This document shows positions 13,652-36,488 of a stretch of 50,026 bases of DNA, piece after piece. Under the pieces are notes generated by a model. It worked only from the letters and a program-made list of their open reading frames with translations, did no database searches and was not told the DNA's origin. This DNA comes from a virus. Position 1 is the first letter of the stretch. Every line of letters begins with the position of its first letter. The DNA is taken from IMG/VR virus record IMGVR_UViG_3300035698_025207, positions 1-50,026 of that record; one strand, 5' to 3'. Made by a program: the position numbers and the translations under genes.

Positions 13652-13803
13652 TATTTCTCCCTTAGCCTCAATCTCAACTCTTTCTCCAATTCAGAAACCA
13701 AATGACTTAAAAAACGAATCGCGGTTTTCTTTTGGTACATCAAATGAATCATTTCAACAATTGCCAAGGCCAATTTTGTTCCCGCCTCTCCTGCCCTGGT
13801 CAT
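13651..13803 (-). CDS. Helical micro-protein (50 aa)
   Basis: ATG at 13803 overlaps the RNA ligase stop (ATGA), and its stop overlaps the radical SAM start (TAATG). It is amphipathic throughout, ending LEKELRLRLREK. It is tiled precisely between two genes, which supports its reality. Function unknown. Confidence 0.55.
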   Translation of the reverse strand: MTRAGEAGTKLALAIVEMIHLMYQKKTAIRFLSHLVSELEKELRLRLREK

Positions 13804-14456: not shown

Positions 14457-14459
14457 TGT

Positions 14460-15173
14460 TTATTCTTCCTTACAAAGATATCTCAAATAAAAGAAGTCAG
14501 CAAGTATCTGCTCATTATAACCTTTATTGCTTTCTCCCAAATACTTCCCTAATGCCCGTTTATAATCGCCACCTGCCTCCTTCAAATGCAAATCCCAGGC
14601 CCAGGCCGTGGACTTTACTCCGACTGATATCTCAAAAATATCCCGCATCTCTTTCAATATACCTGCCTGTTTCAATCCTTCTTCATGTTCTGGCATAACT
14701 TGTCCAAGCCCCATTGCTCCTTTTGACGATATCGTAGTTGGATCAAAGACAGATTCTTTCTTCATAATTGCCAACAGGAATAACGGATCATTTGTTTGGC
14801 TCGTATGAAATACAATCTCCTTCGCCATCTTCTTGGATATCTTTGAAGAATTACTATATACCCAATCGACAAGCAATGGAACGGTCTTATCTGATATTGC
14901 TCCTTTGTTTAAGGCTCTACGGGCTTTATCCAGTGACAAATTTTGCCCTTTTACAGTTTGTATCAGATCTTCCGTTGTTGCTTTATACTCCTGAATAAGA
15001 TTTTTATGGCCCCGATTCGCCATGAAAAGAAAAAATATCGCCACTATCATTATTCCAATAAAAACAGCAGCCCACGATTCAAGAATTCCTCCTGAAATTT
15101 TTCTTTTTTTAAAAATAAAGTCCTTAACTTTTTCTAACCATACAAACTTATCTTTTTTCTCTACATCATTCAT
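14460..15173 (-). CDS. Membrane-anchored lytic transglycosylase (SLT domain, 237 aa)
   Basis: A transmembrane helix spans about residues 33-52. The SLT catalytic signature follows: LAIMKKESVFDP with E140 as the probable catalytic acid, then SSKGAMGLGQVMP at 149-161. The enzyme cleaves peptidoglycan glycan strands. With an N-terminal anchor it would act in the periplasm; it could assist export or lysis rather than act as a virion lysin. It follows the cytidylyltransferase by ATGA overlap. Confidence 0.85.
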   Translation of the reverse strand: MNDVEKKDKFVWLEKVKDFIFKKRKISGGILESWAAVFIGIMIVAIFFLFMANRGHKNLIQEYKATTEDLIQTVKGQNLSLDKARRALNKGAISDKTVPLLVDWVYSNSSKISKKMAKEIVFHTSQTNDPLFLLAIMKKESVFDPTTISSKGAMGLGQVMPEHEEGLKQAGILKEMRDIFEISVGVKSTAWAWDLHLKEAGGDYKRALGKYLGESNKGYNEQILADFFYLRYLCKEE

Positions 15174-15886
15174 TTGCTCTCCCTTTCTGCCAAAAATTTT
15201 GCAAACTCATAATCCATCTCCGTATTGATATCCAAACCCCTATCCCTTGGCATTACATAACCAATCATACCGTCAATATACTGCTCTTTCTTTTGTCTAA
15301 GTCGACTTATATCACAAATAAAAATAGCCCCATTAGAAAGATAAGTTCTCTTTTTCTGTCCTTCTTTAATAAATTTACTATCCCAATAAAAAGAATATTT
15401 TCCCGGACAAGGATTAAAAGGCCACATATAATCTCCGTCAATAATGCCCAATGTATTAGGATTAAAATTCTGTTTTGTTACACTAAGAATAGGTCTCCTG
15501 TCATTATTCAAAAACATTTGATAGGCCAACTGCAAATCGTTTGCTGTACAGAAAGGCGAAGTCGGCAAGGTCATTATCAAAGTCTTATATTCCTGAACAA
15601 CCAACAATACATTCAGGCATACTTCCCAAGCCCTTGCATCATCTTGAGCAAGGGATTCTTCCCTTGAATGAATGTAAAAATGCCACGGATTCCTTTGAAA
15701 AGTTTTTAGATGTTCCTGTATTTTCTTATCCTCAGTCGATACAATAACTCTACCAAGTTGAGAATCAGCAGCCCTATCAACAGCCCTCATCACCAAGCTC
15801 CTGCCATCAACAAGCAATAGGTTCTTGTAAGAAAGGCGCTTTGACCCGCCCCTTGCAGGAATAATAATTACAGTGTCATCTTTCAT
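15170..15886 (-). CDS. CMP-nonulosonic acid cytidylyltransferase (NeuA/PseF/LegF type, 238 aa)
   Basis: It activates a nonulosonic acid with CTP. Motifs: IIIPARGGSKRLSYKN at 7-22 (CTP-binding loop), LPTSPF near 106, and DINTEMDYEFA at the C-terminus, all typical of the family at the usual length. The start overlaps the upstream zinc protein stop (ATGA). Together with NeuB-, PseB- and PseA-type genes it indicates an activated pseudaminic/legionaminic-like sugar. The exact sugar cannot be told. Confidence 0.9.
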   Translation of the reverse strand: MKDDTVIIIPARGGSKRLSYKNLLLVDGRSLVMRAVDRAADSQLGRVIVSTEDKKIQEHLKTFQRNPWHFYIHSREESLAQDDARAWEVCLNVLLVVQEYKTLIMTLPTSPFCTANDLQLAYQMFLNNDRRPILSVTKQNFNPNTLGIIDGDYMWPFNPCPGKYSFYWDSKFIKEGQKKRTYLSNGAIFICDISRLRQKKEQYIDGMIGYVMPRDRGLDINTEMDYEFAKFLAERESK

Positions 15887-16107
15887 AATGTCTTAACCCC
15901 ATTTGCCTCTGTAAATTGAAAACGCCCTCTTCTTGCCCGACAACTTTCTGAGCAAGTAAAATATTGTTCCCAAATACAAACAATATCCAATTCTTCTCCA
16001 TCGCGAAATCTTTTTAAATATTTCTTATATACCGGCTCGCCGCAAACCTGGCATATACGACCAGTTTCTATTTTTATCATTCTCTTTCTAATTCTAATCC
16101 GAGACAT
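15883..16107 (-). CDS. Small zinc-binding protein (74 aa)
   Basis: Cysteines in CQVCGEP near residue 19 and CSESC near 52 make a probable four-cysteine zinc site; the N-terminus is basic (RIRIRKR). It sits between two sugar genes with 1-base spacing and an ATGA overlap. Function unknown; a nucleic-acid-binding role is possible. Confidence 0.6.
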   Translation of the reverse strand: MSRIRIRKRMIKIETGRICQVCGEPVYKKYLKRFRDGEELDIVCIWEQYFTCSESCRARRGRFQFTEANGVKTL

Positions 16108-16108
16108 A

Positions 16109-17089
16109 TTACACCTTTGTTAATATTTCCTGTACCCATTCTTTTATTTCTTCATCATCATCTGCATGAACTAATTTAGAATTATATTCAAAATTCAAAC
16201 CCACAGGCATAGCCATAGGCATCGTTCCAAAATCAAAATATTCATTATCCGGCTCTATACAAAAACACCAACCAAGATCATAGGTTCTCCCTGCCTCATC
16301 AGAAGATATCAAGGTTTCATGAATTTTCTCGCCTGGCCTTATCCCCATTGATCTTATCCGACATTCCTTGCAAATAGCGCTTGCCAGATCAACAACATAA
16401 GACGATCTAAGTTTAGGGACAAATATCTCACCACCTTGCATATATTGTAAGGAAGACAAAACAAAATCTATTGCATCTTCCATAAGCCACCAGAAACGAG
16501 TCATCTGCTTATCTGTCACATAAATAATCCCTTGCTTGGCCTGCTCCCTAAAGATTTCAACCACAGAACCTCTGCTTCCTAAAACATTTCCATATCTAAC
16601 AACACTAAATACCGTTTTCTTTTCGCCAAAAGTATTGGCATTGATAAATAATTTCTCGGCAACAAGTTTAGTCGCCCCATAAAGATTGATCGAACTGACC
16701 GCCTTGTCCGTACTCAACGCAACAACTTTCCTTACCTTATTACTCAAAGCACATTCAATCACGTTCTGAGCACCAAGAATATTTGTCTTGACAGCCTCAA
16801 AAGGATTGTACTCACAAGCCGGAACCTGTTTCAAGGCCGCCGCATGAAAAACATAATCAGCTCCCTTCATCGCCCTGTTCAATCTTTCCTTGTCTCTAAC
16901 ATCACCAATAAAAAATCTAAGAACTTTTGGAAAATCCTCATTATAATATCCTTGCATCTGAAACTGTTTAAATTCATCTCTGGAATAAATTATGACCTTC
17001 TTAGCCTCTGCTTTTATAAAAAGTCTTTCGGCCATAGCCTTACCAAATGATCCTGTCCCTCCTGTTATCAATACTGTTTTATTCTGCAT
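16109..17089 (-). CDS. pseB: UDP-GlcNAc 4,6-dehydratase, PseB/FlaA1 type (326 aa)
   Basis: The start at 17089 follows AAGGAGAATA; an earlier in-frame ATG lacks support. GGTGSFG at 10-16 binds NADP, STDK at 126-129 and Y137/K141 are catalytic, and AALKQVPACEYNPFEAVKTN is the strongly conserved PseB signature. It removes water and inverts C5 of UDP-GlcNAc, the first step of pseudaminic acid synthesis. WbjB/CapD-type capsule enzymes are related, but length and motif fit PseB better. Confidence 0.88.
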   Translation of the reverse strand: MQNKTVLITGGTGSFGKAMAERLFIKAEAKKVIIYSRDEFKQFQMQGYYNEDFPKVLRFFIGDVRDKERLNRAMKGADYVFHAAALKQVPACEYNPFEAVKTNILGAQNVIECALSNKVRKVVALSTDKAVSSINLYGATKLVAEKLFINANTFGEKKTVFSVVRYGNVLGSRGSVVEIFREQAKQGIIYVTDKQMTRFWWLMEDAIDFVLSSLQYMQGGEIFVPKLRSSYVVDLASAICKECRIRSMGIRPGEKIHETLISSDEAGRTYDLGWCFCIEPDNEYFDFGTMPMAMPVGLNFEYNSKLVHADDDEEIKEWVQEILTKV

Positions 17090-17222
17090 TATTCTCCTTG
17101 CCTTTCTCAGCTTCAATAACTTTCATAATTCTGTCTGTGCAAACGCCAACAACACAATCTGATTCACCGCGATAATTATGAGCCACTATTACAATTTCTC
17201 TTATTTTATCTTTTAATTCCAT
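17079..17222 (-). CDS. Uncharacterised micro-protein (47 aa)
   Basis: ATG at 17222 follows GGAGAATTGAAA and the stop overlaps the pseB start region. The product contains VIVAHNYRGESDCVVGVCTD. Not recognised; supported by its ribosome binding site and tight tiling. Confidence 0.5.
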   Translation of the reverse strand: MELKDKIREIVIVAHNYRGESDCVVGVCTDRIMKVIEAEKGKENNAE

Positions 17223-17224
17223 TT

Positions 17225-17713
17225 TCAATTCTCCGATATAAACTTCATTATTTCCTCAACTGCTTCCTGTTCATTATTCACAAAAACCATATCCTTTCTA
17301 TGCTCTTCCCTGACAAAATCAAAATCCCATGACGGAGTAACACAAAAAACTTTCTTGCCTATCCTTTGCGCCTCGCTCATAGGCGTGGATGGAAAATCAA
17401 CAATAACATAGTCGGCCTTTTTCAATTCCCGGCTCAACTTCTTTGTGCTATATTTAATATTCTCAGACATTATATTTTGTTTCAAATATTTTATCGGATC
17501 TTCAAGATTGCTTGTTCTTGGTCCTGCCTTCCAAATAATATTATATGGAATTGAATCAAAGAAATGCCATAGCTTTTTCTGCCACCTATAATACCAACAG
17601 CTTGGTGTTGTGGGCGGGCACAAGCCCTTATCGCCACGATAAATCATTGGTATATATATAATTGTTTTCATTCTAAAATATAATCCCCAATATCCTACAA
17701 ACCTCTTTATCAA
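17225..17713 (-). CDS. C-terminal half of a GT-B glycosyltransferase (162 aa)
   Basis: The first usable codon is TTG at 17713, overlapping the upstream stop (TTGA); an ATG lies at 17671. From MKTIIYIPMIYRGDKG onward it resembles the nucleotide-sugar-binding half of surface-carbohydrate GT-B enzymes: YYRWQKKLWHFF, then KADYVIVDFPSTPMSEAQ, then GKKVFCVTP. No acceptor half is present. The missing N-terminal half seems to be 20061-21167, which ends about where this begins. It could pair with that protein or be an inactive relic. Confidence 0.6.
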   Translation of the reverse strand: MIKRFVGYWGLYFRMKTIIYIPMIYRGDKGLCPPTTPSCWYYRWQKKLWHFFDSIPYNIIWKAGPRTSNLEDPIKYLKQNIMSENIKYSTKKLSRELKKADYVIVDFPSTPMSEAQRIGKKVFCVTPSWDFDFVREEHRKDMVFVNNEQEAVEEIMKFISEN

Positions 17714-17919
17714 AGATCATGACTTAGATCCTCCAATCCGTTTTCAATTAAAATAATTCCTTCTGCAATCTCCCCAACACCATCATCCCAGGACTGTATT
17801 TCTGCCTCTAATTCATAAAAAATGACGCGCGCCTTATCCCGTTCTTTAGCAATAATATTTTTAGATACTTTTATTTGCTTCAACAGTTTTGTAATTTTAT
17901 TAATTTCTTGTTTTTTCAT
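17710..17919 (-). CDS. Small coiled-coil protein behind repeated promoter (69 aa)
   Basis: ATG at 17919 lies about 20 bases downstream of a copy of the repeated TATAAT element. Helical throughout: residues 1-40 basic, residues 41-69 acidic. Similar short helical proteins are common in phages and uncharacterised. Confidence 0.6.
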   Translation of the reverse strand: MKKQEINKITKLLKQIKVSKNIIAKERDKARVIFYELEAEIQSWDDGVGEIAEGIILIENGLEDLSHDL

Positions 17920-17937
17920 TTTATTCCTCTATATACT

Positions 17938-17971
17938 TATTATATATTATTTTTCAGGAAAACAAAAATTT
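17938..17971 (-). promoter_or_regulatory. Repeated AT-rich promoter element, copy P4
   Basis: On the minus strand AAATTT is followed after a spacer by AAAAATAATATATAATA, ending about 20 bases before the 17919 start. It overlaps the last codons of the amidotransferase gene. This copy has the most diverged spacer of the five. Confidence 0.6.
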
Positions 17972-19116
17972 TTATCCTCAATTCCATTTACGCCCGAATC
18001 AAAATCCCGTCCAACAGTAAAATTTGGAGACCATCTTCCTTTCTGTATATCATAACAAAACAAGGCTTTATCAACATAACTATTCACGACATCCCAAAAC
18101 TCAGTCAATGTAATTTCAATATATTCACAAAATTGATTCACATACTTGTCGCTACATTTTCCATCATACATCTGGACAAGCCTTATTCCTTGATCTCTTG
18201 TCAACAAACCCTGCCGAATATCATAACAAACCTCATCCGTCACAGCGCCATAGCCAAACTTAAAATATTTCAAAATATTTTGATTAATTATTTTTAGATC
18301 AGAATCAAGAGAAAAATATCTATTTGTTCTTCCTTCCCGCAATGGATCTGCATTTGATCTGCCTTTTAATCCATGCCTAATAGCAAACGCTGTATTATTT
18401 GCATTTGACCATTCTTCAACATAATAACCAAGAAATATTGCCTTCATATCATCAAGCTCGCCAGGCCAAGGAAATTCATACATAAACAAATCTTTTTCCG
18501 CCACCACATCATCAAGCCAAATACTTACATCATCCTTAACCGTATTGGCATTTCTCCATTGCATTGCATCTCCTATTATCGCAAACCCATCAACACCAAG
18601 AGTCTCACCAGGATTTTCGCCCTCAATAACCAAAGGTATACCAAATTTTGAAGCAATCCTAAACGCGCTGGCATACAATGAATACTCAAGCGGCTTGACA
18701 AAATTGCCATATTCAAAAAACGCTCTTTTGCTAAGATGCCTTTCTACTCTCGAATTTGGCCTCATTGATATCATATCAAACCCATGTCGAACAAGATTCT
18801 CTAAATTATATCTGCCTACATCGGAAATATTGTCAGGAGCACAATTTACAAGCAAGCAATTCAGCCCTAAAATATCCCTGGCGTACAAAGCCTGAAAAGT
18901 CGTATCCTTTCCACCGCTGACGCCAACAACGCAATCATAAGTAGTTGAAACTCTCTTTGTCCATTCAACAATACTTAATAGTTCGCTCCTTCTTCGAGAC
19001 CAATCAACCCAACTTTGTCTCTGCTCCGCAATAACGCACGCCATACAAACCTGATCTGTATTGAATATTATTCCTGGCCTTGTATCCGGCTGAACGCATC
19101 TTTTACAATATTTCAT
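17947..19116 (-). CDS. pseA: N-acetyl sugar amidotransferase, PseA/WbpG family (389 aa)
   Basis: The family converts an acetamido group on a nonulosonic acid to acetamidino. Zinc-site cysteines C4, C7, C24 and C27 open the protein, the PP-loop GVSGGKDT at 65-72 binds ATP, and the long middle (EGENPGETLG, IWLDDVVAE) is typical. Length is normal. The start follows GGAGGATTAAA. It suggests the final sugar is amidinated. Confidence 0.88.
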   Translation of the reverse strand: MKYCKRCVQPDTRPGIIFNTDQVCMACVIAEQRQSWVDWSRRRSELLSIVEWTKRVSTTYDCVVGVSGGKDTTFQALYARDILGLNCLLVNCAPDNISDVGRYNLENLVRHGFDMISMRPNSRVERHLSKRAFFEYGNFVKPLEYSLYASAFRIASKFGIPLVIEGENPGETLGVDGFAIIGDAMQWRNANTVKDDVSIWLDDVVAEKDLFMYEFPWPGELDDMKAIFLGYYVEEWSNANNTAFAIRHGLKGRSNADPLREGRTNRYFSLDSDLKIINQNILKYFKFGYGAVTDEVCYDIRQGLLTRDQGIRLVQMYDGKCSDKYVNQFCEYIEITLTEFWDVVNSYVDKALFCYDIQKGRWSPNFTVGRDFDSGVNGIEDKNFCFPEK

Positions 19117-19117
19117 T

Positions 19118-20044
19118 TTAATCCTCCAAACTATAAATTTTTATAGACTTTATCTTGCCCTCGAAAGGCCATATTCCATCATCGGGATAAGCAAGATGAA
19201 ATGGGGCACCAACCGTACCGATATGCAATGGGCCATCTCCTTTTATCTCTCCTAATGATATTCGCTCTTTTCTAAACCTCCCTTTCATAAAATCTACGAA
19301 AAGCTCCTTTCCGTCATAACCCATATTCATAGCATAAGAAATATCCGGTTGCGGACAATCAATAGGAATACATATTCCGTCAACAGGGCCAAATCCGTTT
19401 TCCACATCCTTACCAACCTCAACAAAAAAATAATATCCAAGAGAAATATTTGTTAAATGATATTGAAACCAATCTGGGGTAATATATCCGAAACAATAAT
19501 TCCTATGGCCCAAATCGTTTCTCTTGTCAAAAATAAAACAGCTTTTCTTATTATTTGTTATAGAAAACTCTATATGAATTTCCCATTTATCCAAATTGAT
19601 TTCATCACAATTCAAAACTTCAACATATCCCTGACCATTAAATTCAAGACAATTACTCCGTCCATCAATATATGTGGTTCTTTTTACGCCAACACCATGC
19701 ATATTTCGTATTATTCCCTTGGCAAGATCATGATCAACATCAAACAAAATATGATTCCAAACATTAGGGTCTCTGTCTTCGGGGGGATAGGAATACAAAG
19801 TCTTATATTCCGCCATTATTCTTTTACCCGTATTTTTTTCTCTCGGAATGATATTTTTATGTTGCAATTCAAGAGATAAATTAAGAAACGCCCTCTTTAA
19901 TTTTTCTATTTTTATTGTAGCAAGCCAAAACTCCTGCTTTGCATACAGATCCATCAATTCAACAAACAAAGTCTGACATATCTGATGTGCTGGAGTTTGG
20001 TTATCCAATACAAATAATGAAACCTTGTTTTCTTCATCTGCCAT
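19118..20044 (-). CDS. LamG/concanavalin-like domain protein (308 aa)
   Basis: The start at 20044 follows GGAGAATTGATA. Residues about 120-308 have a LamG-like beta-sandwich pattern: CLEFNGQGYVEVL near 131, WEIHIEFSI near 153, GPLHIGTVGAPF near 272 and EGKIKSIKIYS at the end. The N-terminal 100 residues are helical. Such folds bind glycans and occur in phage tail fibres and surface proteins. No signal peptide. A virion or glycan-binding role is inferred. Confidence 0.6.
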   Translation of the reverse strand: MADEENKVSLFVLDNQTPAHQICQTLFVELMDLYAKQEFWLATIKIEKLKRAFLNLSLELQHKNIIPREKNTGKRIMAEYKTLYSYPPEDRDPNVWNHILFDVDHDLAKGIIRNMHGVGVKRTTYIDGRSNCLEFNGQGYVEVLNCDEINLDKWEIHIEFSITNNKKSCFIFDKRNDLGHRNYCFGYITPDWFQYHLTNISLGYYFFVEVGKDVENGFGPVDGICIPIDCPQPDISYAMNMGYDGKELFVDFMKGRFRKERISLGEIKGDGPLHIGTVGAPFHLAYPDDGIWPFEGKIKSIKIYSLED

Positions 20045-20060
20045 TATCAATTCTCCTTTT

Positions 20061-21167
20061 TCATATCACCTTACAATTCCAACAATTCTCTTCAACCCTA
20101 TTGCTAAAAAACTCCTTATCTTCTTTTGTATGAGTTACAAAATAATCATAAAGCCTCAATCTATTCCAATCATTCGCCCAGTTATCATAAGCCTCCCAAC
20201 CATGCTTGACATAAATAGTCGGGATGTAAAGCTGTCTTGCCGCCAACAACAAGCCATACTGATAAAGTTTGTTTCTCCTTGTAAAAATAACGGCATCAAA
20301 TTTATTTTCCTTCAAATAACGAATATAAAAATCTTTCAGACAAAGAATCTTCAAAACAATTTTTTCAACAAAATAATAAATTCTATCCCTCAACAGAACA
20401 AAAGAAACACTCTTATCAAATCCGCCAAGATCATCGATCTTATTAACCAAATCCATAATATCCAACAAAAAATCATCAAGTTTAATATTGTATTCTTTTT
20501 CCTTAACTAAACCCGTTATTTTTCCAAGCCGATTAAAAGTTCTCAATCCCGACATAGGACTTGCAAACAAAAACCTTTCATTTCTTTTCCATGAAGGTAA
20601 AAACTGTAAATATCTAAACCAATCATATGTTCCTCGTATTCCTTTATTGTCCCGCCAATCAGTAACCTCTTTAGAAACATTCATTTTGGCAAAAAGCCAT
20701 TGTCGATCAAATTCAGCAACGAATCCTTTTCCAAAAAACCTTGAAAAAATAGACATGCCCTTAAAATACAATTCATCATCCATCACATCCTGCTTATCAA
20801 ATCGAATCATATAATAGCATTTATCAGGCTTCTCCTGCTCGATTATTTTCTTGAATTGCATTCCTTTCCTAACAAAAGCATCAATAACATTTTTCAACAT
20901 GGAAACACAATGAACCGTCATTGGAATATCAAAGGCTTTAATCTCTGGATACCGCTCTATCAAAAACAATTCCAATTTATTCAACCATCCTCTGAACTTC
21001 TCAGTATAGATCAAAGTCTCCTGCCATACAAAGTAATCCTCAGGAATCTTATATGTATAGCCTCGCCTATCAAGCTCGTACATAGCCATAGGGGTCAGGG
21101 CTATGATCTGCCCCTCAATTCCTTTCAAGGCATTATTGTCAAAATCTTCGATAAATGTTATGTTCAT
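20061..21167 (-). CDS. N-terminal half of a GT-B glycosyltransferase (368 aa)
   Basis: The protein has an acceptor-side Rossmann pattern near its end: FDAVIFTRRNKLYQYGLLLA, IPTIYVKHGWEAY and YDYFVTHTKEDKEFF. In surface-carbohydrate GT-B enzymes this is followed by a second Rossmann domain, but here the frame stops at NCWNCKVI. The matching second half is at 17225-17713. The ATG overlaps the GNAT stop (ATGA). Whether the halves assemble is unknown. Confidence 0.6.
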   Translation of the reverse strand: MNITFIEDFDNNALKGIEGQIIALTPMAMYELDRRGYTYKIPEDYFVWQETLIYTEKFRGWLNKLELFLIERYPEIKAFDIPMTVHCVSMLKNVIDAFVRKGMQFKKIIEQEKPDKCYYMIRFDKQDVMDDELYFKGMSIFSRFFGKGFVAEFDRQWLFAKMNVSKEVTDWRDNKGIRGTYDWFRYLQFLPSWKRNERFLFASPMSGLRTFNRLGKITGLVKEKEYNIKLDDFLLDIMDLVNKIDDLGGFDKSVSFVLLRDRIYYFVEKIVLKILCLKDFYIRYLKENKFDAVIFTRRNKLYQYGLLLAARQLYIPTIYVKHGWEAYDNWANDWNRLRLYDYFVTHTKEDKEFFSNRVEENCWNCKVI

Positions 21168-21697
21168 TTTTCATCAACCCAATCCTTTTTGATATAAGAA
21201 TAGTAACAACTATCCCAAAATTTTCCTTTTCTATACACTCTCTGTCTCAACAAACCATCAAAATGAAAATTGCACTTCTTAAAAAACTCTATACCTACTT
21301 TATTAAACCCATATACCTCCGCCCAGATACAGTTCAAATCCATCGAGTCAAAGGCTATTTCTTTTAATTTCCTAATCGTTTCCTGGCCAACTCCTTTACT
21401 TTGATTTTGTTTATCTCCAATATATATGCTAACCTCTGCATGACGATTTACCCAATCAATATGGGCAAGTCCACAAACACCAACAAAAACCTTTTCTGGT
21501 ATCCTTCCTGCCTGATTTTTCTGAACTATTGCCAACATCAAATTCCTGTCCATATCCAGATTCTCAAACCACTTGACATGCTCCCTCCAAAACAAAGGCC
21601 GCCATTGTCTTGTTCTTGCCCTTATCTCAGGATCGTTTCTCCACTTGAACATCTGTTCCAAGTCGCTTTCATCTAAAGGTCTCAAAGTCACTTTCAT
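21164..21697 (-). CDS. GNAT acetyltransferase, PseH/RimJ-like (177 aa)
   Basis: A GNAT fold with MFKWRNDPEIRARTR near residue 16 and the acetyl-CoA loop around QNQSKGVGQETIRKL near 97. The WRNDPEIR opening and overall length match RimJ/L-like and PseH-like enzymes. In the neighbourhood of an aminotransferase, N-acetylation of a UDP-4-amino sugar is the likely role. The start follows GGAGGATGAGTA. Confidence 0.8.
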   Translation of the reverse strand: MKVTLRPLDESDLEQMFKWRNDPEIRARTRQWRPLFWREHVKWFENLDMDRNLMLAIVQKNQAGRIPEKVFVGVCGLAHIDWVNRHAEVSIYIGDKQNQSKGVGQETIRKLKEIAFDSMDLNCIWAEVYGFNKVGIEFFKKCNFHFDGLLRQRVYRKGKFWDSCYYSYIKKDWVDEK

Positions 21698-21700
21698 TAC

Positions 21701-21883
21701 TCATCCTCCTTTACATAATTCAATTGCTTGACTTTCTGTAAATCCTACCTGAAGAAAAGCTTCATACTTTGCTCTTGTAATCATCGCAAGTATCGCTTGA
21801 GCCTCAATTTGCATAGGAAGAGTTCTTTTAAGCTCTCTTAACATCCCTTCCATATCTATTTTTACAGGTTTAATTTTATCCAT
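21701..21883 (-). CDS. Small helical protein (60 aa)
   Basis: ATG at 21883 lies in the end of the aminotransferase gene. The last 35 residues (AILAMITRAKYEAFLQVGFT, then AIELCK) form a helix-loop-helix ending in a cysteine. This tail resembles the ESQAIEL ending of many short phage proteins. Function unknown. Confidence 0.55.
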   Translation of the reverse strand: MDKIKPVKIDMEGMLRELKRTLPMQIEAQAILAMITRAKYEAFLQVGFTESQAIELCKGG

Positions 21884-23060
21884 TTATCAAATAATCCCCC
21901 TTCTTTAGAATCTTATGAATGCGATCAACAATATATTCAACATCCTCGTATGTCATTCCCGGTCCTAAAGGCAAACTGACCGTATGCTCTCCTATCCACT
22001 CGGCGTTTGGAAATTGTCCCTTCTTCCATCCGAATCTTTCTTGATAATAAGGATGCAGATGAATTGGCTTATAATGTATTCCACAGCAAATATTTTCCTT
22101 TCTCATTTCCATTATAAACTTGTCTCTGTTACCAAGCTGAATGGTATAAAGGTGAAGACCATGAACTGTTCGATCCACCTTCATAGCTTCAATTATTGGG
22201 GTATTGCCATTGAAAATTCCTTCCTTTCTAAACCGATCAAAAACAAGATTATAATCGAACCATATATCCTCTCTTTTATACCAATTATCTTCAACCTCTC
22301 TTAGTTGTTGCAAGGCTATCACTGCTTCCAAATCCGTACAATTAGCCTTATAACCGAGATCGACAATATTATACCTACCAGGAGAATCGACCCTCTTTGA
22401 AGCATCTGCATCCATTCCATGAATTCTTAGTCTCCTTATTTTCTCTGCTGTTTCATCATTATTCGTCACGGCCATTCCCATCTCAGGAGCGGCAATATTT
22501 TTCGTTGGATTGAAACTATAACAGCCACAATCACCGAAAGTCCCGACATGCTGGCTCCGCCACTTTGTCTCAATGGCATGGGCACAATCCTCGACAATCC
22601 AAATATGATATTTTTCCTTGAGCTTTGACAAAGTATCCTGATCACAACTTTGACCTGCAAAATGAACAGGAACAATTCCCTGAAAATAAAATTCCCCATA
22701 CTTTTCAGCTGAATCCAGATCAACATCCAAATCAATGCACTGAGTTTTCTTATCCACGTCTATTAAAAAGGGAACAAGATCATTATAGATTATAGCATTG
22801 ATGGTAGAACAAAAAGTTAAGGGAGAAGTTAGAACATGACAAAAACGCTCAGTAAGAGAAAGTTTATTTACTTGAATTGCAAGCCACAAAGCCATAGAAC
22901 AACTGTTAACAGCAACGGCATGTTTAACCCCTATATAGTCGGCAAACTCCTGTTCTAATCGCTCTGTGACTTTGCCCATAGTCCACCAGCCACTCTCAAG
23001 AACTTTTTGCACTTCAGCATAGGTTTCCTTCGATACGTTTTGTTTTGATAAAGAAATCAT
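21876..23060 (-). CDS. DegT/DnrJ/EryC1/StrS sugar aminotransferase (394 aa)
   Basis: PLP enzyme of the sugar aminotransferase family. VEDCAHA (D158) and SFNPTKN with K187 as the PLP lysine are present, as is the N-terminal GWWTMGKVTERLEQEFA. It transfers an amino group to a 4-keto sugar nucleotide, the PseC or LegC step. The start at 23060 follows TTGGAGAAAAAAGAA and overlaps a membrane micro-ORF. The exact substrate is inferred from context. Confidence 0.87.
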   Translation of the reverse strand: MISLSKQNVSKETYAEVQKVLESGWWTMGKVTERLEQEFADYIGVKHAVAVNSCSMALWLAIQVNKLSLTERFCHVLTSPLTFCSTINAIIYNDLVPFLIDVDKKTQCIDLDVDLDSAEKYGEFYFQGIVPVHFAGQSCDQDTLSKLKEKYHIWIVEDCAHAIETKWRSQHVGTFGDCGCYSFNPTKNIAAPEMGMAVTNNDETAEKIRRLRIHGMDADASKRVDSPGRYNIVDLGYKANCTDLEAVIALQQLREVEDNWYKREDIWFDYNLVFDRFRKEGIFNGNTPIIEAMKVDRTVHGLHLYTIQLGNRDKFIMEMRKENICCGIHYKPIHLHPYYQERFGWKKGQFPNAEWIGEHTVSLPLGPGMTYEDVEYIVDRIHKILKKGDYLING

Positions 23061-23176
23061 TTCTTTTTTCTCCAACAATTAAATTTAACAAATGCAATAT
23101 TCAATCCATTAAAAAACAATATCATACCGATGATCCACAAACCTGTTATCAATATCTTTATTAACATATCATCCAT
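23057..23176 (-). CDS. Single-span membrane micro-protein (39 aa)
   Basis: The frame encodes one hydrophobic helix (about residues 6-30) and a basic tail (NCWRKKK); its stop overlaps the aminotransferase start (ATGA). It has only a weak ribosome binding site. Probable but unproven. Confidence 0.4.
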   Translation of the reverse strand: MDDMLIKILITGLWIIGMILFFNGLNIAFVKFNCWRKKK

Positions 23177-23183
23177 GATGCCA

Positions 23184-23420
23184 TCAGATCAATACTTTAT
23201 TTATAATATAGGTAAGAAGCCCGCCAAAGAATAAAAATGTTCCAACATAAACCTTTGAAAAACAGTCCCTAAACCCTTCAGAAATACAATAAATTGTATT
23301 GGCAGGACCACTAATTAAAATCCCTATCCCGACAAGAAAGCTCAACACTGCAAGCAATGTAACAAGTTTATATTTCTTTTTCGTTAATTCAATCGTGGTA
23401 TGATCTGTTTCATTTTTCAT
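23184..23420 (-). CDS. Two-span membrane protein (78 aa)
   Basis: Two hydrophobic spans at about 18-38 and 56-76 are separated by a loop with two cysteines (YCISEGFRDCF). The N-terminus is charged. Start overlaps the upstream stop (ATGA). Not recognised. Confidence 0.55.
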   Translation of the reverse strand: MKNETDHTTIELTKKKYKLVTLLAVLSFLVGIGILISGPANTIYCISEGFRDCFSKVYVGTFLFFGGLLTYIINKVLI

Positions 23421-24016: not shown

Positions 24017-24688
24017 TTAAATATCTATTACTGTTACCTCACTAATTCCCTTCCTTTGCGTAACGTTAAAAATCTTATCCGCCACCCCCAGAAACTCAGG
24101 CAATGTCGTAATCACTATCATTTGAAGATCTAATTTTTCACTAACCATCTTGAGCATATCTGCACATTTCTTTTGCAATACCCTGGCATCAGTAGTTGGA
24201 TCATCGTTAACAAACTTGAACGGCTCATCCAAAACCATAACCGGCCTTGTCCTATTTAAACTCCAAAATGAACAGCGCAAGGCAAAGGCCGCCACATCAT
24301 TGGCCCCTCCACCCGTCGTGAATAAAGTATCTCCATATTCTATCCCGTCCTTTACAAACACCAAATCGCATTCCGTCTTATTTCTTCTCTGCTCAAATTT
24401 AATTTTAAATTCATAAGGATCATCAAACACGGTAGTCAAAGCTAAAGTAACGAGATTGCTCATATGATATTCAAGTTTCTTTTGAGTTTCCTGAGCGATC
24501 TTTCTGACAACTTCCAATGCCTTAACAGAATCAGAATGCCTTTTCTCAAAGGAAAGGCTTTGTTCTTTAGCCTTTTCCAAATCAGCAAGAACTCTATCTC
24601 TTTCGCCCTTCATCCTATCCAATTTACCAAGAACATCAACCTTGAACTCGGAGCTTTGTGCTGTTATATGAGAATAATCAGAACTCAT
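24017..24688 (-). CDS. C-terminal ATPase half of a split SbcC/Rad50-like protein (223 aa)
   Basis: The start at 24688 follows GGAGGAAAAAT. Residues 1-75 are coiled coil. TGGGANDVAAFALR at about 125-138 is the ABC signature region and VMVLDEPFKF at about 150-159 is Walker B with the catalytic Glu; MIVITTLPEF near 192 is the H-loop region. No Walker A is present. The complementary N-terminal half is at 26701-27756, and the SbcD-like nuclease lies between. Together they would form a DNA-end resection and repair complex. Confidence 0.8.
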   Translation of the reverse strand: MSSDYSHITAQSSEFKVDVLGKLDRMKGERDRVLADLEKAKEQSLSFEKRHSDSVKALEVVRKIAQETQKKLEYHMSNLVTLALTTVFDDPYEFKIKFEQRRNKTECDLVFVKDGIEYGDTLFTTGGGANDVAAFALRCSFWSLNRTRPVMVLDEPFKFVNDDPTTDARVLQKKCADMLKMVSEKLDLQMIVITTLPEFLGVADKIFNVTQRKGISEVTVIDI

Positions 24689-24932
24689 ATTTTTCCTCCA
24701 GTTTTTCAAAGGCAGTCACGATAGTTTTGTTCCGACGCAATATTTGGTGATCCAAAGCCTTCACTTTCTTATGCGCCGCATCTGCGGTCTTAATCCCGAA
24801 AGTCCGTTTCAACCTTTCCATCTTCTCGGACTTCTGGCCAATCATCTGATCTCGCAAAGACTTCTTTTCTCCAATCTCCTCTTCAATCCTATTCAATTTT
24901 CTTAGTACTTGTTCCGGGGTTAAGTCTGTCAT
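24678..24932 (-). CDS. Small coiled-coil protein next to the split SbcC (84 aa)
   Basis: ATG at 24932 overlaps the upstream stop (ATGA). Almost the whole protein is coiled coil (LRKLNRIEEEIGEKKSLRD, then HQILRRNKTIVTAFEKLEEK). Because it lies between the nuclease and the C-terminal ATPase half, it may be a detached piece of the Rad50 coiled-coil arm; this is only inference. Confidence 0.6.
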   Translation of the reverse strand: MTDLTPEQVLRKLNRIEEEIGEKKSLRDQMIGQKSEKMERLKRTFGIKTADAAHKKVKALDHQILRRNKTIVTAFEKLEEKYEF

Positions 24933-25096
24933 TTTGATCCTCTCCTTGTTTCAATTAAAGTCAAAGCCTGACTAAGACCGTCTCTATAATGTGTCTGTGA
25001 AGCCGCCCTATCCCAATTTTCTCTTTCCTTTGCAGTTTCAATTTCCTTATCACAATCCTTAATCCATTTTTCTAATATTATTGTTATTAATTTCAT
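24929..25096 (-). CDS. Small helical protein (55 aa)
   Basis: ATG at 25096 follows GGGGGTATTAAA, and the stop overlaps the 84-aa coiled-coil start. The pattern KDCDKEIETAKERENW ... HYRDGLSQALTLIE resembles the HGLKF-type proteins at 1361-1603 and 11821-12048 weakly. Function unknown. Confidence 0.5.
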   Translation of the reverse strand: MKLITIILEKWIKDCDKEIETAKERENWDRAASQTHYRDGLSQALTLIETRRGSK

Positions 25097-25097
25097 T

Positions 25098-25232
25098 TTA
25101 ATACCCCCATAATATACAATCCATATGCCAAAAAAGAAAGCTCACCTCAATTAAGAATCCCGTATTCCAACTAACCGTTATACCAAAATCCACACATTGA
25201 CTATTAATATTCTTTTTAAATTCAATTTTCAT
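25098..25232 (-). CDS. Aromatic-rich micro-protein (44 aa)
   Basis: ATG at 25232 has GGGG upstream at a longer spacing. FGITVSWNTG, then a hydrophobic run ending HMDCILWGY, gives it a pattern similar to 2411-2614. It may be a tiny membrane-associated protein. Not recognised. Confidence 0.45.
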   Translation of the reverse strand: MKIEFKKNINSQCVDFGITVSWNTGFLIEVSFLFWHMDCILWGY

Positions 25233-25260
25233 AATAACCAATCCCCTTCATTTTATCTTC

Positions 25261-26193
25261 CTATACATCTAAAAATCTTTCACCTTTACCCGACGCCTCT
25301 TTTATCACATTCCTAATCCCAAAATCCAAACTCTTAACTTTTCTTTTCAAATTATCAAGAAAATTTAAACCCAAATCTTTCTGTTCATCCAATCCCAAAA
25401 CAAACAAATCCAACTCCTCATTCCTCTCCTTTTCTTTCCTTGCCTGTCCAACATTCAATATCTTTGTCTTAGACCCTACCCTTAAAAACTTTTGTTTTAT
25501 AGTTCTATCATCAGTATCATAAATATAATAACAAGGCCGATGATCAACTTGATCAATTCCGCTTCGCATAAGACTTCCACAATTCACAAGATATCTATCT
25601 TTAACATTAAATGAAAACGATTTATGGTTATCACCGCATACAAACAAATCAAATTCAGGATATTCATCAAGAAGACTTTTACCATATACAAAATCTTCCT
25701 GGCTCTTCCATATTTTTTTATCAACAATCATCTCATGAATGACAAGAATATTCAATTCTTTTTTATCTTTCACTTCAGGAATATCTTCGCCCCAACTACA
25801 ACCATAAACCTGCCCTATCTGCATTCCTGTTTTTGTTGTCAATCGATAAGGTTTCTGTTTCAAAACTTGAACAATCTCCGCCGCCTCCATAACCGCTAAT
25901 GGAGTATTGTCAATTCTCTGACTATGATACCTGAGATCATGTTGCCCTCTAATACAAAGAATCTGGATATATGAACTTCCCAATAACTCAATATATTTAT
26001 TAACAACAAACCAAGGCACATCTATCCCATCAAAGAAATCCCCTGGCTGCAATATAATGCCACAACCATTCCTATCCGCCAAATCCAGAAGCTGCTTGAT
26101 CTTGCCATACTGAGTTTCAAAATAATTCTCATCAAGCCTCATGCGAGGACGCTTGAATCTCAAATGCCAATCGCCTGTCAATAACAATTTCAT
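25261..26193 (-). CDS. sbcD: SbcD/Mre11-like metallophosphoesterase nuclease (310 aa)
   Basis: The calcineurin-like motifs are D8-x-H10 (GDWHLR), GDFFD (51-55), RGQHD (82-86, in place of GNHD), VIHEM and CGDNHK. This fits the exonuclease subunit of SbcCD/Mre11-Rad50, which trims DNA ends and hairpins. The start at 26193 overlaps the upstream stop; an ATG at 26214 is less likely. Length is shorter than cellular SbcD, lacking most of the C-terminal cap and leaving a lysine-rich tail. Confidence 0.85.
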   Translation of the reverse strand: MKLLLTGDWHLRFKRPRMRLDENYFETQYGKIKQLLDLADRNGCGIILQPGDFFDGIDVPWFVVNKYIELLGSSYIQILCIRGQHDLRYHSQRIDNTPLAVMEAAEIVQVLKQKPYRLTTKTGMQIGQVYGCSWGEDIPEVKDKKELNILVIHEMIVDKKIWKSQEDFVYGKSLLDEYPEFDLFVCGDNHKSFSFNVKDRYLVNCGSLMRSGIDQVDHRPCYYIYDTDDRTIKQKFLRVGSKTKILNVGQARKEKERNEELDLFVLGLDEQKDLGLNFLDNLKRKVKSLDFGIRNVIKEASGKGERFLDV

Positions 26194-26444
26194 CTTTTTA
26201 CACCATAGGAACATGAATCAAGACTAACTGCACAGATCGCCCAAATAAATATAGCCAAAATCCATATTGGCGACATTACGGCCAACCATGACAAAGTAAT
26301 AATTCCTATAAATTTTAGAACAATAAATAATATTGTTAATATTGCGACAAAGGAAAGAATTCCAACTAATATCATCTCATTCTTTTTTGACCATTTATAT
26401 TCATATTCATTTTTTATTGACATACCATCTTGACCCATTATCAT
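26190..26444 (-). CDS. Two-span membrane protein, Tmemb_185A-like (84 aa)
   Basis: The start follows GGGGAAGTT. Two hydrophobic spans carry LTILFIVLKFIG and AVMSPIWI, matching the protein at 10250-10504. The C-terminus has two cysteines. It overlaps the SbcD start (ATGA). Function unknown. Confidence 0.65.
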   Translation of the reverse strand: MIMGQDGMSIKNEYEYKWSKKNEMILVGILSFVAILTILFIVLKFIGIITLSWLAVMSPIWILAIFIWAICAVSLDSCSYGVKR

Positions 26445-26473
26445 AACTTCCCCTTTTTCTCTTTAAAATAATT

Positions 26474-26686
26474 TCATTTCTTTCTTCTCATCAAAGGAGC
26501 GATTACAACTCGCTCACGCGTCTTAGTTGAAACAACTTTATAAGTCTGACCATCAATATCAATTATCATGCCCTTACGAAGCTTGACATCAGGCCCTGAA
26601 ATTTTAACTCTCTCCTCTTGAAATTTCGCCTTTACCAATTCCTTACGATCCTTTCTTGTCAATTTTACTTGTACTGTTTCTGACAT
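26474..26686 (-). CDS. Uncharacterised 70-aa basic protein
   Basis: The start at 26686 follows AGGAGGATAAT; an upstream in-frame ATG lies in the Rad50-half gene and is less likely. The first half is a basic helix and the second a small beta barrel-like unit (LRKGMIIDIDGQTYKVVSTK), similar in feel to KOW/SH3 folds. A nucleic-acid or ribosome-binding role is possible. Confidence 0.6.
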   Translation of the reverse strand: MSETVQVKLTRKDRKELVKAKFQEERVKISGPDVKLRKGMIIDIDGQTYKVVSTKTRERVVIAPLMRRKK

Positions 26687-26700
26687 ATTATCCTCCTTTC

Positions 26701-27756
26701 TTAAAACGGCCTCCTGCACAATGGACACATGCCCGCCTCATCAAATATCCTTTGTTTGTCTTTTTCCAATTGGCCCAATTCGCTTTCATGCTCTTCTATC
26801 AATGGAGACAATTCTTCAATTTCAAAAATCAAGTCCTTTAACTCCTCCATCGTTTTTATGTCTTGCTTATGCTGTTTTACACTATCTCTCAGTTCCTGCA
26901 CTTCCATTTCAGATTGTATCTCAATATTCAACTCCGCAATTTGCCCATCAATATTATCAATGGATTCAAGAAGCGTTTTGAGCATGTCTCTTTCGTTGAT
27001 ATTTTTTGACATCTCCTTTGCCGACTTGAAAATATCTCCTGCTTCCTTCTCTACCTCCAGCCATATGTCAACCTCCTCAATATCTTCACCCAATTCCTCT
27101 ATTTCTCGAAGCAGATTTAACAATCCCCTCCGTTGCTGTCTTCTCTTTTCCCTTCCTATCAAAGAATCTTCTAATCCCTTGACAATATCCTCTATCTCAT
27201 CCAGAATTGCAAATTTATCAAGTTCCTGTCCTTTTTCCTTTATATCTGCTTCCAATCTTGTAACTTCTCTATTTGAAGATAGAACAATGGAATTAATGCC
27301 TTTCAAAAGAACATCAATAATATCCAGGCCAACAACCCTATTAAATTTCTTTGCGACTTCGCCAGAAGTATCTTGCAACAAAAAATAATTATCATGCTGT
27401 TGTTGAATATTATGATCGGCAAGATTTAAAAGAGTTGAAACTTCAGTCGGAACATCAGAACGCACAGCTTCCAATTTAGGATCATCGGGAATTGAATAAC
27501 CATTAAACTTATTATCTCTTTTGCGAATAACTTTTACATCCTGATCAAATTCAAGGATCACTTCGGTGGTATCTTTTTCTTCTGAAAAATCACCCTTGAA
27601 ACCAAAACCTTGAGGCCTATTATTTGCCGCCCAATTCAACGCTCTCACTATTGCAGACTTGCCGGAGCCTGAGATCCCGGTAATGACATTGACTCCGTCT
27701 ACAAACTCCAGACAAGTCTGCTTATGAGACTGAAAGTTCTTTATATCCAGTTTCAT
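26701..27756 (-). CDS. N-terminal ATPase half of a split SbcC/Rad50-like protein with zinc hook (351 aa)
   Basis: Walker A GISGSGKS at 27-34 opens the ATPase half, followed by a long coiled coil from about 150 to 335. The protein ends at CPLCRRPF, so the zinc hook (C344, C347) is at the very C-terminus and there is no returning coil or Walker B. The missing half is a separate protein at 24017-24688. The start overlaps the histone gene stop (ATGA). The natural break at the hook suggests that two chains meet at the hook. Confidence 0.82.
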   Translation of the reverse strand: MKLDIKNFQSHKQTCLEFVDGVNVITGISGSGKSAIVRALNWAANNRPQGFGFKGDFSEEKDTTEVILEFDQDVKVIRKRDNKFNGYSIPDDPKLEAVRSDVPTEVSTLLNLADHNIQQQHDNYFLLQDTSGEVAKKFNRVVGLDIIDVLLKGINSIVLSSNREVTRLEADIKEKGQELDKFAILDEIEDIVKGLEDSLIGREKRRQQRRGLLNLLREIEELGEDIEEVDIWLEVEKEAGDIFKSAKEMSKNINERDMLKTLLESIDNIDGQIAELNIEIQSEMEVQELRDSVKQHKQDIKTMEELKDLIFEIEELSPLIEEHESELGQLEKDKQRIFDEAGMCPLCRRPF

Positions 27757-27944: not shown

Positions 27945-28236
27945 CCTTTCTCCCCCTTTTGTACTTAGATTTATGCTTGGTCGTGACAGAGGAAGATTCT
28001 ACCTTCCTGGATTGCAATAACAATGCCTTCTTCGTCTCCAAGACTCCCTTACTCCCTCTGTCACGCGCTCTCCTTTTTTTACCTTCCCTCCATAAAGGTC
28101 TTCCTCTTGGATCTGTATTTAAACATTCTCGACAAGGATCTTCATTTATAGAACATCCAAAGTCAGCACAGGAAATGCAATGTCTCATTCTTGGATTCGA
28201 CATTGACTCAAACCAGTCCTGATTCATCCGAGGCAT
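27910..28236 (-). CDS. Cysteine-rich N-terminal, basic C-terminal protein (108 aa)
   Basis: The N-terminal part has CISCADFGCSINEDPCREC near residues 20-38, a compact zinc-binding cluster, then PRGRPLW. The remaining 60 residues are Lys/Arg/Ser-rich and likely disordered. A short overlap (35 bases) with the histone gene is notable. Not recognised beyond a putative metal-binding nucleic-acid protein. Confidence 0.6.
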   Translation of the reverse strand: MPRMNQDWFESMSNPRMRHCISCADFGCSINEDPCRECLNTDPRGRPLWREGKKRRARDRGSKGVLETKKALLLQSRKVESSSVTTKHKSKYKRGRKDGKEKYQGFGF

Positions 28237-28622
28237 TACCTTCCCTTTCTCCTTCCCTTGACCAATCTAAGGATATCAAAGAAAACATCTGCATCTAATA
28301 TCACAACCGCATCCTTATGACTCCTTCTTGCCACTAACAACCAGTCCGTTCCTGGCATCTGATTTTTTTTTGCTTGCTCAATCCAACCATGTACCGACCA
28401 GCTCTCCTGCCTCTTACATTCCACCGACCAAGGAAAAAGCTCCTTAGCCTCACCAACAAGTCGGATGTCAACTCCTGACAATCCCATCTCCCTACTGGCA
28501 ATCTGTTCATCCGAGCCCCAGGGCAAGTCTATAAGCCAAGAAATTTTCTTTGCGACCCACTGTTGCAAAATCCGACCTTTTCCTTTTTTGCTTGAAACAG
28601 CTATTGATTTCTTCTTAGGCAT
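28236..28622 (-). CDS. PD-(D/E)XK-type nuclease, resolvase-like (128 aa)
   Basis: The start at 28622 overlaps the recA stop region and has AAAGGAGATTTA upstream. LSGVDIRL followed by PWSVECKRQES gives the D...ExK catalytic arrangement of the PD-(D/E)XK fold, with a helix starting WIEQAKKNQ. Placement after RecA and before the SbcCD genes supports a recombination nuclease such as a Holliday-junction resolvase. The exact substrate is inferred. Confidence 0.7.
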   Translation of the reverse strand: MPKKKSIAVSSKKGKGRILQQWVAKKISWLIDLPWGSDEQIASREMGLSGVDIRLVGEAKELFPWSVECKRQESWSVHGWIEQAKKNQMPGTDWLLVARRSHKDAVVILDADVFFDILRLVKGRRKGR

Positions 28623-29733
28623 TAAATCTCCTTTTTCTTTTCGGCATGATCTTCTCCTCGATCTCATTCCAATCCTGTTCCACAAGATCAACAAGCTTAT
28701 CGTATTCACCTGAATCATTCTCTATTAAATCAACTAACTCCAATTTTTTGTTTTTTTTATCATTCCATTCAATTTCCTTTGCCTCTGGGCCATACAAATA
28801 ATCCAGCATTGTCCCTATATCATCAAGTCCGTAATCAAACAAGATTGTAAACTCCTCCTCTCTAAATGGCTTAGCAGTCTTGTTTCTTTCCCACTTCGCC
28901 ACTACTCTTATTCCATAAACTCTTTCCTGAGAACGAAAAGTCTTTTTCAATTTCTTCTTTTCATAGAGCCAGGCCACTTGATGCGTATAAAAATCCAGGG
29001 CCTTGCCACCTGTTCTATATTTCTTTTTCCCAAAAGTTACACCGATCTTATCCCTAACTTGAGAAATCAATATCAAAGTCGCATCCTTCTTTTCCATTGT
29101 TTCATTCTTCTTTTCCATTATGGAACATAACTGATTGAAAAAGGCACCGCTAAAATATTTCGCCTTTTCCGTTCCATAACTTCCATCCTCTTCTTTATCT
29201 GTCTTAATAGCCTTTTCAATTCTCTCCTTTGCGGCTTTCGCTATTGTCGCATCAATCGAATCAAGAACATATAAAAGAAATTCGTCAGACCTTAATGCCT
29301 TAACCCTCCTTTGATAATCACGACCAAACTCCTCACAAGTTTCTGATTGAATCCATTCAACAGAATCATGAAACCTCTGACCATACATTTCAGGTATAGG
29401 AAAATCCATCACTCCTTCAATATTATTATAAACGATAATAACCTTTTTCACTTTTGAAAATAAATCTGACTTGATTTTTTCAATATTATAAAAAGCCCAG
29501 GCACAAGCCTCTAATGCCAAAAGGGTCTTGCCGGACGATCCATCACCAACAATATTATTTATTCTTCCTCTTGCCCAACCTCCATCTCTTCCTTTCTGAG
29601 ATGCCGCCAGGTTCAAGATAATTGAGCCTGTAGAAATAAACTCAACAGTCGACGCCTTTTGGGGCGGCTTTTTAGCGACTGTCCGAATCTGTTCTGGCAA
29701 TAACTTTGTTGACCTTCTTCGTCGTCTTTCCAT
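28615..29733 (-). CDS. recA: RecA-like recombinase (372 aa)
   Basis: The start at 29733 has AGAGGGAGAAGAA upstream; a longer frame to 29835 would place an odd cysteine/tryptophan-rich N-terminus in a structured leader. STGSIILNLAA near 34, Walker A GDGSSGKT at 63-70, VLDSIDA (Walker B) near 161 and the loop LILISQVRDKIG near 220 match RecA. The C-terminus is charged (VEQDWNEIEEK) with a basic tail. It would pair homologous DNA during phage recombination. Confidence 0.85.
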   Translation of the reverse strand: MERRRRRSTKLLPEQIRTVAKKPPQKASTVEFISTGSIILNLAASQKGRDGGWARGRINNIVGDGSSGKTLLALEACAWAFYNIEKIKSDLFSKVKKVIIVYNNIEGVMDFPIPEMYGQRFHDSVEWIQSETCEEFGRDYQRRVKALRSDEFLLYVLDSIDATIAKAAKERIEKAIKTDKEEDGSYGTEKAKYFSGAFFNQLCSIMEKKNETMEKKDATLILISQVRDKIGVTFGKKKYRTGGKALDFYTHQVAWLYEKKKLKKTFRSQERVYGIRVVAKWERNKTAKPFREEEFTILFDYGLDDIGTMLDYLYGPEAKEIEWNDKKNKKLELVDLIENDSGEYDKLVDLVEQDWNEIEEKIMPKRKRRFNA

Positions 29734-29759
29734 TTCTTCTCCCTCTAAATTAGCGACTT

Positions 29760-29829
29760 GGCTGGTGAGCAACAGACCTCGGACTTTAACCGTACTCTGC
29801 CGCCACTCACAATCGCATACCCACCAACC
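29760..29829 (-). promoter_or_regulatory. Structured RNA leader of recA
   Basis: On the minus strand two exclusive foldings can be drawn. One pairs 29829-29822 with 29767-29760 (8 bp with one G-U). The other is a long hairpin from GTGAG (29810-29806) to CTCAC (29769-29765) with inner stems GGCAGA/TCTGTT and CGG/CCG around the loop TTAAAGT. The arms overlap, so only one can form fully. The recA ribosome binding site is about 20 bases downstream. It may be an attenuator or protein-binding leader; no known riboswitch class is recognised. Confidence 0.45.
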
Positions 29830-29865
29830 CTCCACTTTGTGTAAGCTGTAAGATTGCTAACTCTC

Positions 29866-36128: not shown

Positions 36129-36488
36129 TTATTCTTCTCTGCCGCTTCCGCTATAGCCATAAGGTTTCGTAATCTCTATTTTCTTGCCGATCTTTTTCGC
36201 GTACTTCATCTCTCTCCTTATTCCTTTAGACTGATGCCAGTTCGGCATGTTCGCAATCCATAGCTCGTCGCACCAGTCAAGCCATGACTCATTAAGTTTT
36301 GCCCAATAGCCCGAATCTGTCCGCATATCACCATGAATATGTATTGGATGAGAATGGGCAATCGGACAGAACACAAGACACCCTTCGGATATCAGACTTG
36401 CCGCAATTTTACATACGGATTCAAATCTCTTTCTTTCTACTTCGGGATCGTCATCCGAATACGGACTTGCAAGATATATCTTTTTCAT
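36129..36488 (-). CDS. DUF1937 protein (119 aa)
   Basis: YLASPYSDDDPEVERKRF at the start, GCLVFCPIAHSHPI near 36-50 and SWLDWCDELWIANMPNWHQS near 70-87 match the DUF1937 family, which resembles nucleoside 2-deoxyribosyltransferases in fold. A nucleotide-related role is likely but untested. Its start overlaps the stop of the helicase-methyltransferase gene. Confidence 0.78.
   Translation of the reverse strand: MKKIYLASPYSDDDPEVERKRFESVCKIAASLISEGCLVFCPIAHSHPIHIHGDMRTDSGYWAKLNESWLDWCDELWIANMPNWHQSKGIRREMKYAKKIGKKIEITKPYGYSGSGREE

Follow-up and report, generated by a model that had tools for sequence, protein, structure and literature searches.

A phage SbcC probably encoded as three separate proteins, with the N-terminal half ending at the zinc hook

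The stretch of DNA analysed here (the window) comprises the 50,026 nucleotides of virus record IMGVR_UViG_3300035698_025207 in IMG/VR, positions 1 to 50,026. Its minus strand was found to carry the N-terminal and C-terminal halves of an SbcC/Rad50 ATPase, a protein of DNA-break repair, as separate genes, together with a gene for the SbcD nuclease and a gene for a small coiled-coil protein. We consider it likely, with a probability of roughly 0.82, that these genes encode a phage SbcCD end-processing complex of the Rad50-Mre11 and T4 gp46-gp47 kind in which SbcC is divided among three separately encoded proteins. The N-half would supply the Walker A motif and the outgoing arm that ends in the zinc hook, while the small protein and the C-half would supply material for the returning arm together with the signature and Walker B. 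Judged from the sequences, the split recurs in more than 100 other phage sequences and appears to be an inherited design.

The N-half (26701-27756, 351 amino acids (aa)) matches Pfam AAA_23 (E 6e-13) and phrog_16465 (E 8e-32). Its lobe carries the Walker A motif ITGISGSGKS (ITGISGSGKSAI), as is characteristic of the N-lobe of SbcC and Rad50, and the chain terminates in GMCPLCRRPF, that is ...FDEAGMCPLCRRPF, followed by a stop codon. The CPLC motif forms residues 344-347 (codons at 26716-26727, with Cys344 and Cys347 identified by sequence and alignment) and is predicted to lie where the arm helix ends, which is the apical position of a CxxC hook. Both hook cysteines and the glycine and lysine of Walker A were observed to be invariant in 36 aligned N-halves. 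The AlphaFold2 model of the N-half shows the lobe followed by a helix (residues 144-340) that runs up to the hook, with a predicted local distance difference test score (pLDDT) of 84.6 and a predicted template modelling score (pTM) of 0.42. The top PDB matches of this model in Foldseek are 9a9j_A, 3qkr_A, 1f2t_A, 1f2u_A and 1ii8_A.

The C-half (24017-24688, phrog_15167 E 9e-22) starts about 2.0 kb downstream of the N-half, in agreement with the distance of about 2 kb given by the first-pass annotation. The probable start is the ATG at 24688, which has GGAGG six bases upstream and gives 223 aa, rather than the TTG of a 230-aa open reading frame (ORF). The coil, signature and Walker B that had been attributed to this half were all recognised: the AlphaFold2 model (pLDDT 93, pTM 0.75) opens with a helix at residues 4-87 and continues as the lobe, the signature is present in a degenerate form (TTGGGAND), and Walker B reads VMVLDEP. 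Motifs and fold are thus those of an SbcC/Rad50 C-lobe. Our alignments show that the first glycine of GGG is present in 35 of 35 C-halves and that the Asp-Glu of Walker B is invariant in 38. The top PDB matches of the model (9a9j_B, 1f2t_B, 1f2u_D/B, 3qkr_B and 1ii8_B) are the partner chains of the N-half matches in the same two-chain Pyrococcus furiosus Rad50 entries, and sequence profiles concur with this assignment of the halves to the Rad50 N-chain and C-chain.

Between the two halves lies the gene for the SbcD/Mre11-like nuclease, a metallophosphoesterase (25261-26214; Pfam Metallophos E 2e-8, phrog_100 E 5e-8), in which the motifs D.H, GD, GQHD, H and GDNH were observed. Motif III of this protein (GQHD, residues 90-93, at 25936-25947) takes the same form in 68 of 141 distinct SbcD proteins of this family, the window included, while GNHD is found in 59. 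The small coiled-coil protein (24678-24932, 84 aa) is encoded immediately before the C-half and shares 11 bases with its start. Ribosome-binding sites are present at the split genes.

Relatives were collected by scans of viral contigs, in which N-half seeds gave 80 loci and two C-half seeds gave 27 and 80 loci, and by one scan of prokaryote genomes, which gave 9 loci; viral-contig scans that used single halves of the window as queries gave no match. The survey comprised 147 distinct complete N ORFs of at least 250 aa from viral contigs, isolate phages and prophages. A CxxC was found within 25 residues of the end in 140 of them, with a median tail of 8 residues, and it is equally near-terminal in loci that were reached solely through the C-half. 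This conservation excludes a chance origin of the terminal CxxC. The first-pass annotation had proposed a cut exactly at the zinc hook; a split directly after the hook proves to be a family trait; the tail that it counted as five residues past CPLC is four (RRPF). SbcD, the expected partner of SbcC, was found in the locus of 141 of the 147 N ORFs. A separate C-half was present in the fetched stretch for 131, all of which also have SbcD. The order N-SbcD-C noticed in the window was observed in 89 of these 131 loci and the order N-C-SbcD in the other 42.

The N-half and the C-half are separate ORFs in the window, and the two genes are separate in all the relatives examined, unlike an SbcC in which one polypeptide folds back as an intramolecular antiparallel arm. 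Fused relatives, which had been suggested as a check, were looked for: no ORF matched both the N and the C profiles in 215 loci, nor did any with broader profiles, although loci picked by their split halves give no measure of how frequent single chains are in more distant phages. As a control for the detection of fused forms, archaeal two-lobe Rad50 chains were caught by alignment profiles, while T4 gp46 was missed by the family profiles. A full-length SbcC elsewhere in the genome, which would have spoken against the split, did not appear, as the 50,026-base record holds no second AAA_23 match (the record may be a fragment).

Isolate phages rarely carry the split form: at most 5 of 50,697 records were found per search. 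Bacillus phage vB_BboS-125 encodes a 471-aa N-half (gp32) that ends in GGICPLCEQTHKGGGC, an AP2-like gene, a 78-aa coil and a 211-aa C-half, and we noticed an SbcD-like ORF at 22420-23253 where no feature is annotated. The N-half of Acidobacteriota phage Tunturi_5 ends in CGKCGDPISKSAA and has a 97-aa coil and SbcD alongside, with the C-half more than 100 kb away. Separate halves were also observed in Microbacterium phage Magritte and in an uncultured 485-kb phage. Several N-halves depart from the common form. Locus L149 has CPFY in which the second cysteine is replaced, and three near-identical loci (L190-L192) have their CxxC 37 residues before the end. In locus L162 (423-2015) an HNH_3/NUMOD4 homing endonuclease is fused in frame just past the hook, and in locus L088 (9050-11365) SbcD and the N-half form a 771-aa fusion that continues for 138 residues past the hook, with the C-half separate.

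The small proteins, typically of about 77 aa, fall into two profile groups that are linked, and phrog_18563 was matched by 12 of 33 that were sampled. The window protein, which was itself a seed, matches the first group at 1.8e-22. A small coil gene lies no more than 1.5 kb upstream of the C-half in 125 of the 131 cassettes and mostly abuts or overlaps its start (within 30 bases in 86 of 116 small-C pairs). This constant position points to an SbcC in three pieces. It strengthens the earlier suggestion of the 84-aa coiled-coil ORF as a third piece, and we regard that assignment as probable. The L088 fusion, which joins SbcD, the N-half, the hook and the further 138 residues in one ORF, might have served as a Rosetta stone for the small protein. 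The extension does match the small-protein profile, but 13 of 402 windows of generic coiled coil match equally well, and the reading was discounted for this reason.

The arm of the N-half was observed to be repetitive. In the window it is a helical segment of about 200 residues with 47-residue tandem repeats, and across 108 N-halves a 47-residue periodicity with a harmonic at 94 was found between lobe and hook. The signal is clear in the window (z 5.6), strong in locus L085 (4986-6608, z 10.0) and weak or absent in some members; it is absent from the arms of T4 gp46 and E. coli SbcC. The N arm varies in length from about 110 to 357 residues, whereas the arm offered by the small protein and C-half is nearly constant. 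With these parts alone, long members would therefore be unable to build an antiparallel arm of full length, and the N arm is probably not canonical. Arm lengths are clustered, with best Rayleigh periods of 40 and 55.5, and strict quantisation of arm length by the 47-residue repeats is accordingly not claimed.

Each half holds only part of the ABC (ATP-binding cassette) ATP site, so that assembly would be the economical reading. The N- and C-halves may join as one ABC head without a covalent link, and two such heads would bind SbcD. Two N-halves may be held together by a Zn(Cys)4 site that is made by the CxxC motifs at their C-termini, and the small protein would lie against the arm, either close to the hook or between it and the head. 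The assembled complex would process or tether double-strand ends and so feed the neighbouring UvsX in phage recombination and replication. It is very improbable that the N- and C-lobes instead work separately in different ATPase complexes: their genes are at times far apart, as in Tunturi_5 and Magritte, but each lobe has only one half of the ATP site, 131 of the 147 loci hold both lobes together with SbcD, and separate N and C chains assemble in the solved Rad50 heads. Rejoining of the halves by a split intein, trans-splicing or a programmed frameshift has some precedent in that inteins and introns can occur in phage genes (PMC3322345). However, the N-halves stop 4-25 residues past CxxC and the C-halves open directly with the arm helix, so that intein halves would not fit, and the two genes lie apart, with further genes or a distance of more than 100 kb between them. 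Rejoining was rejected from the positions of the chain ends and is very improbable. An ordinary SbcC broken by pseudogenization, frameshift or misassembly, for which the sole argument is that annotated SbcC/Rad50 is normally one chain, has a negligible chance of being correct and is refuted by conservation: of 147 distinct relatives, 140 show the identical break and keep the conserved motifs, the ribosome-binding sites in the window are in place, and the halves stand apart, with other genes or more than 100 kb in between.

The role of the small protein and the geometry of the arm are less settled. The lobes might assemble with SbcD and the small protein might be no piece of the arm but an accessory or regulatory subunit that evolved alongside the split, a possibility of some weight but of less than even odds. 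Its profile fits the L088 extension no better than generic coil, its length is independent of that of the N arm (r = 0.12), and in Tunturi_5 it stands beside the N-half rather than the C-half. Conversely, the order hook, small protein, C-half is kept in 125 of 131 cassettes, and the protein is coiled coil throughout and conserved together with the split. More tentatively, and in our view rather unlikely, the complex could be a Rad50 that naturally consists of three chains, its hook forming a free chain end on an arm of 47-residue repeats. Two N arms might then pair side by side, parallel as far as the hook, and only the part next to the head would be closed by the small protein and C-half; the number of repeats would be free to vary because there is no covalent return strand to match. 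We nevertheless favour the SbcCD complex with SbcC in three pieces, against which several observations weigh. The window C-half has threonine where the H-loop histidine is expected (histidine in 32 of 35 relatives), the Magritte N-half lacks CxxC, the long-arm members are at odds with a simple antiparallel arm of full length, and the sole natural helical extension beyond the hook, that of L088, is indistinguishable from generic coiled coil.

Upstream of the split genes, in the same recombination module of the minus strand, are a UvsX-like recombinase (28615-29835; phrog_97 E 2e-36, Pfam RecA E 5e-23) and a RusA-like Holliday junction resolvase (28236-28718; phrog_244 E 5e-10). Together with a neighbouring gp32-like single-stranded DNA-binding protein, they fit a recombination role for the split SbcCD. 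Three further minus-strand ORFs lie among the split genes. An ORF of 84 aa from a GTG start (26474-26728) overlaps the N-half at its end; with the ATG at 26686 as start, which is preceded by AGGAGG, it would encode a 70-aa KOW-like basic protein (Pfam EFP_N KOW-like match E 7e-4, below the cut-off), and it lies outside the conserved core of the cassette. A predicted membrane protein of 84 aa with a hydrophobic sequence (26190-26444; phrog_1374 E 8e-11) is encoded directly upstream of SbcD. Small membrane proteins beside SbcCD genes are also represented by T4 47.1 and SPN3US gp187 (PMC5105663); any tie of the window protein to the SbcCD complex is tentative. The third, a 55-aa ORF (24929-25096), runs with its stop into the start of the small coil gene and gave no match in Pfam and PHROG searches. 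Elsewhere in the window, sugar-biosynthesis genes that resemble a nonulosonic acid pathway were observed at 13800-23078, adjoined by an RNA ligase and a transglycosylase; they include a polysaccharide epimerase (16109-17116), a cytidylyltransferase (15170-15886), a DegT aminotransferase (21876-23078) and a GNAT acetyltransferase (21164-21697). Most of a 759-aa protein (36485-38764) is covered by matches to helicase profiles, and its C-terminal part matches DNA methyltransferase profiles.

The system shares with E. coli SbcC and archaeal Rad50 the N-lobe with Walker A, the coiled arm, the CxxC hook, the C-lobe with signature and Walker B, and the SbcD/Mre11 partner. E. coli SbcC is one chain with CPLC at 506 of 1048, whereas the window has separate chains, a terminal hook and 47-residue arm repeats. 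T4 gp46-gp47 is likewise an SbcCD-type phage recombination nuclease with small genes between its subunit genes, but gp46 is a single chain of 560 aa that has its CPTC at 288. The closest structural likeness is to two-chain P. furiosus Rad50 (1F2T/1F2U, 1II8, 3QKR and 9A9J), where separate N and C chains make the ABC head; those entries are ATPase-head constructs, while the phage split is natural and keeps the arm and hook. A literature search for split SbcC/Rad50 found no paper, although absence from the searched literature is no proof of novelty, and the word SbcC is absent from the papers on the vB_BboS-125 genome and on Tunturi_5.

Other phage enzymes are known to be split and to reassemble, such as NrdA of Aeh1 and the DNA polymerase 43A/43B of phage 25, and homing endonucleases are often found at the break of such genes in pieces (PMC2988022). 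Those are isolated cases, while the SbcC split is found across many divergent phages and comes with a third piece that is conserved. In T4-related phages, endonuclease insertions split genes whose products still work (PMC2988022). As AP2/HNH-type endonuclease genes abut or adjoin the N-half stop downstream in several relatives, and given the L162 fusion and this precedent, it is plausible that the split arose by endonuclease insertion at the hook. Chromosomal SbcC-like frames of 1045-1228 aa were found in 5 of 6 bacterial genomes with related prophage C-halves, the sixth having only a weak SbcC match. The split proteins thus accompany the host SbcC and do not replace it, which does not contradict the split.

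Models of Rad50 action presume an unbroken hairpin arm that links head and hook. The conserved chain end at the hook offers a natural test of whether tethering, or the signalling between hook and head, requires such continuity. Three PHROG families, phrog_16465 (exonuclease), phrog_18563 (unknown) and phrog_15167 (ATPase), which match the N-half, many small coils and the C-half respectively, are annotated separately in PHROGs, where they are unlinked and the split is unstated; they become linked here. If true, a free-end three-chain Rad50 would have an arm architecture for which SbcC, Rad50 and SMC proteins offer no known example. On the evidence of its sequences the three-piece phage SbcC is real and conserved, and its arm architecture deserves a structure.
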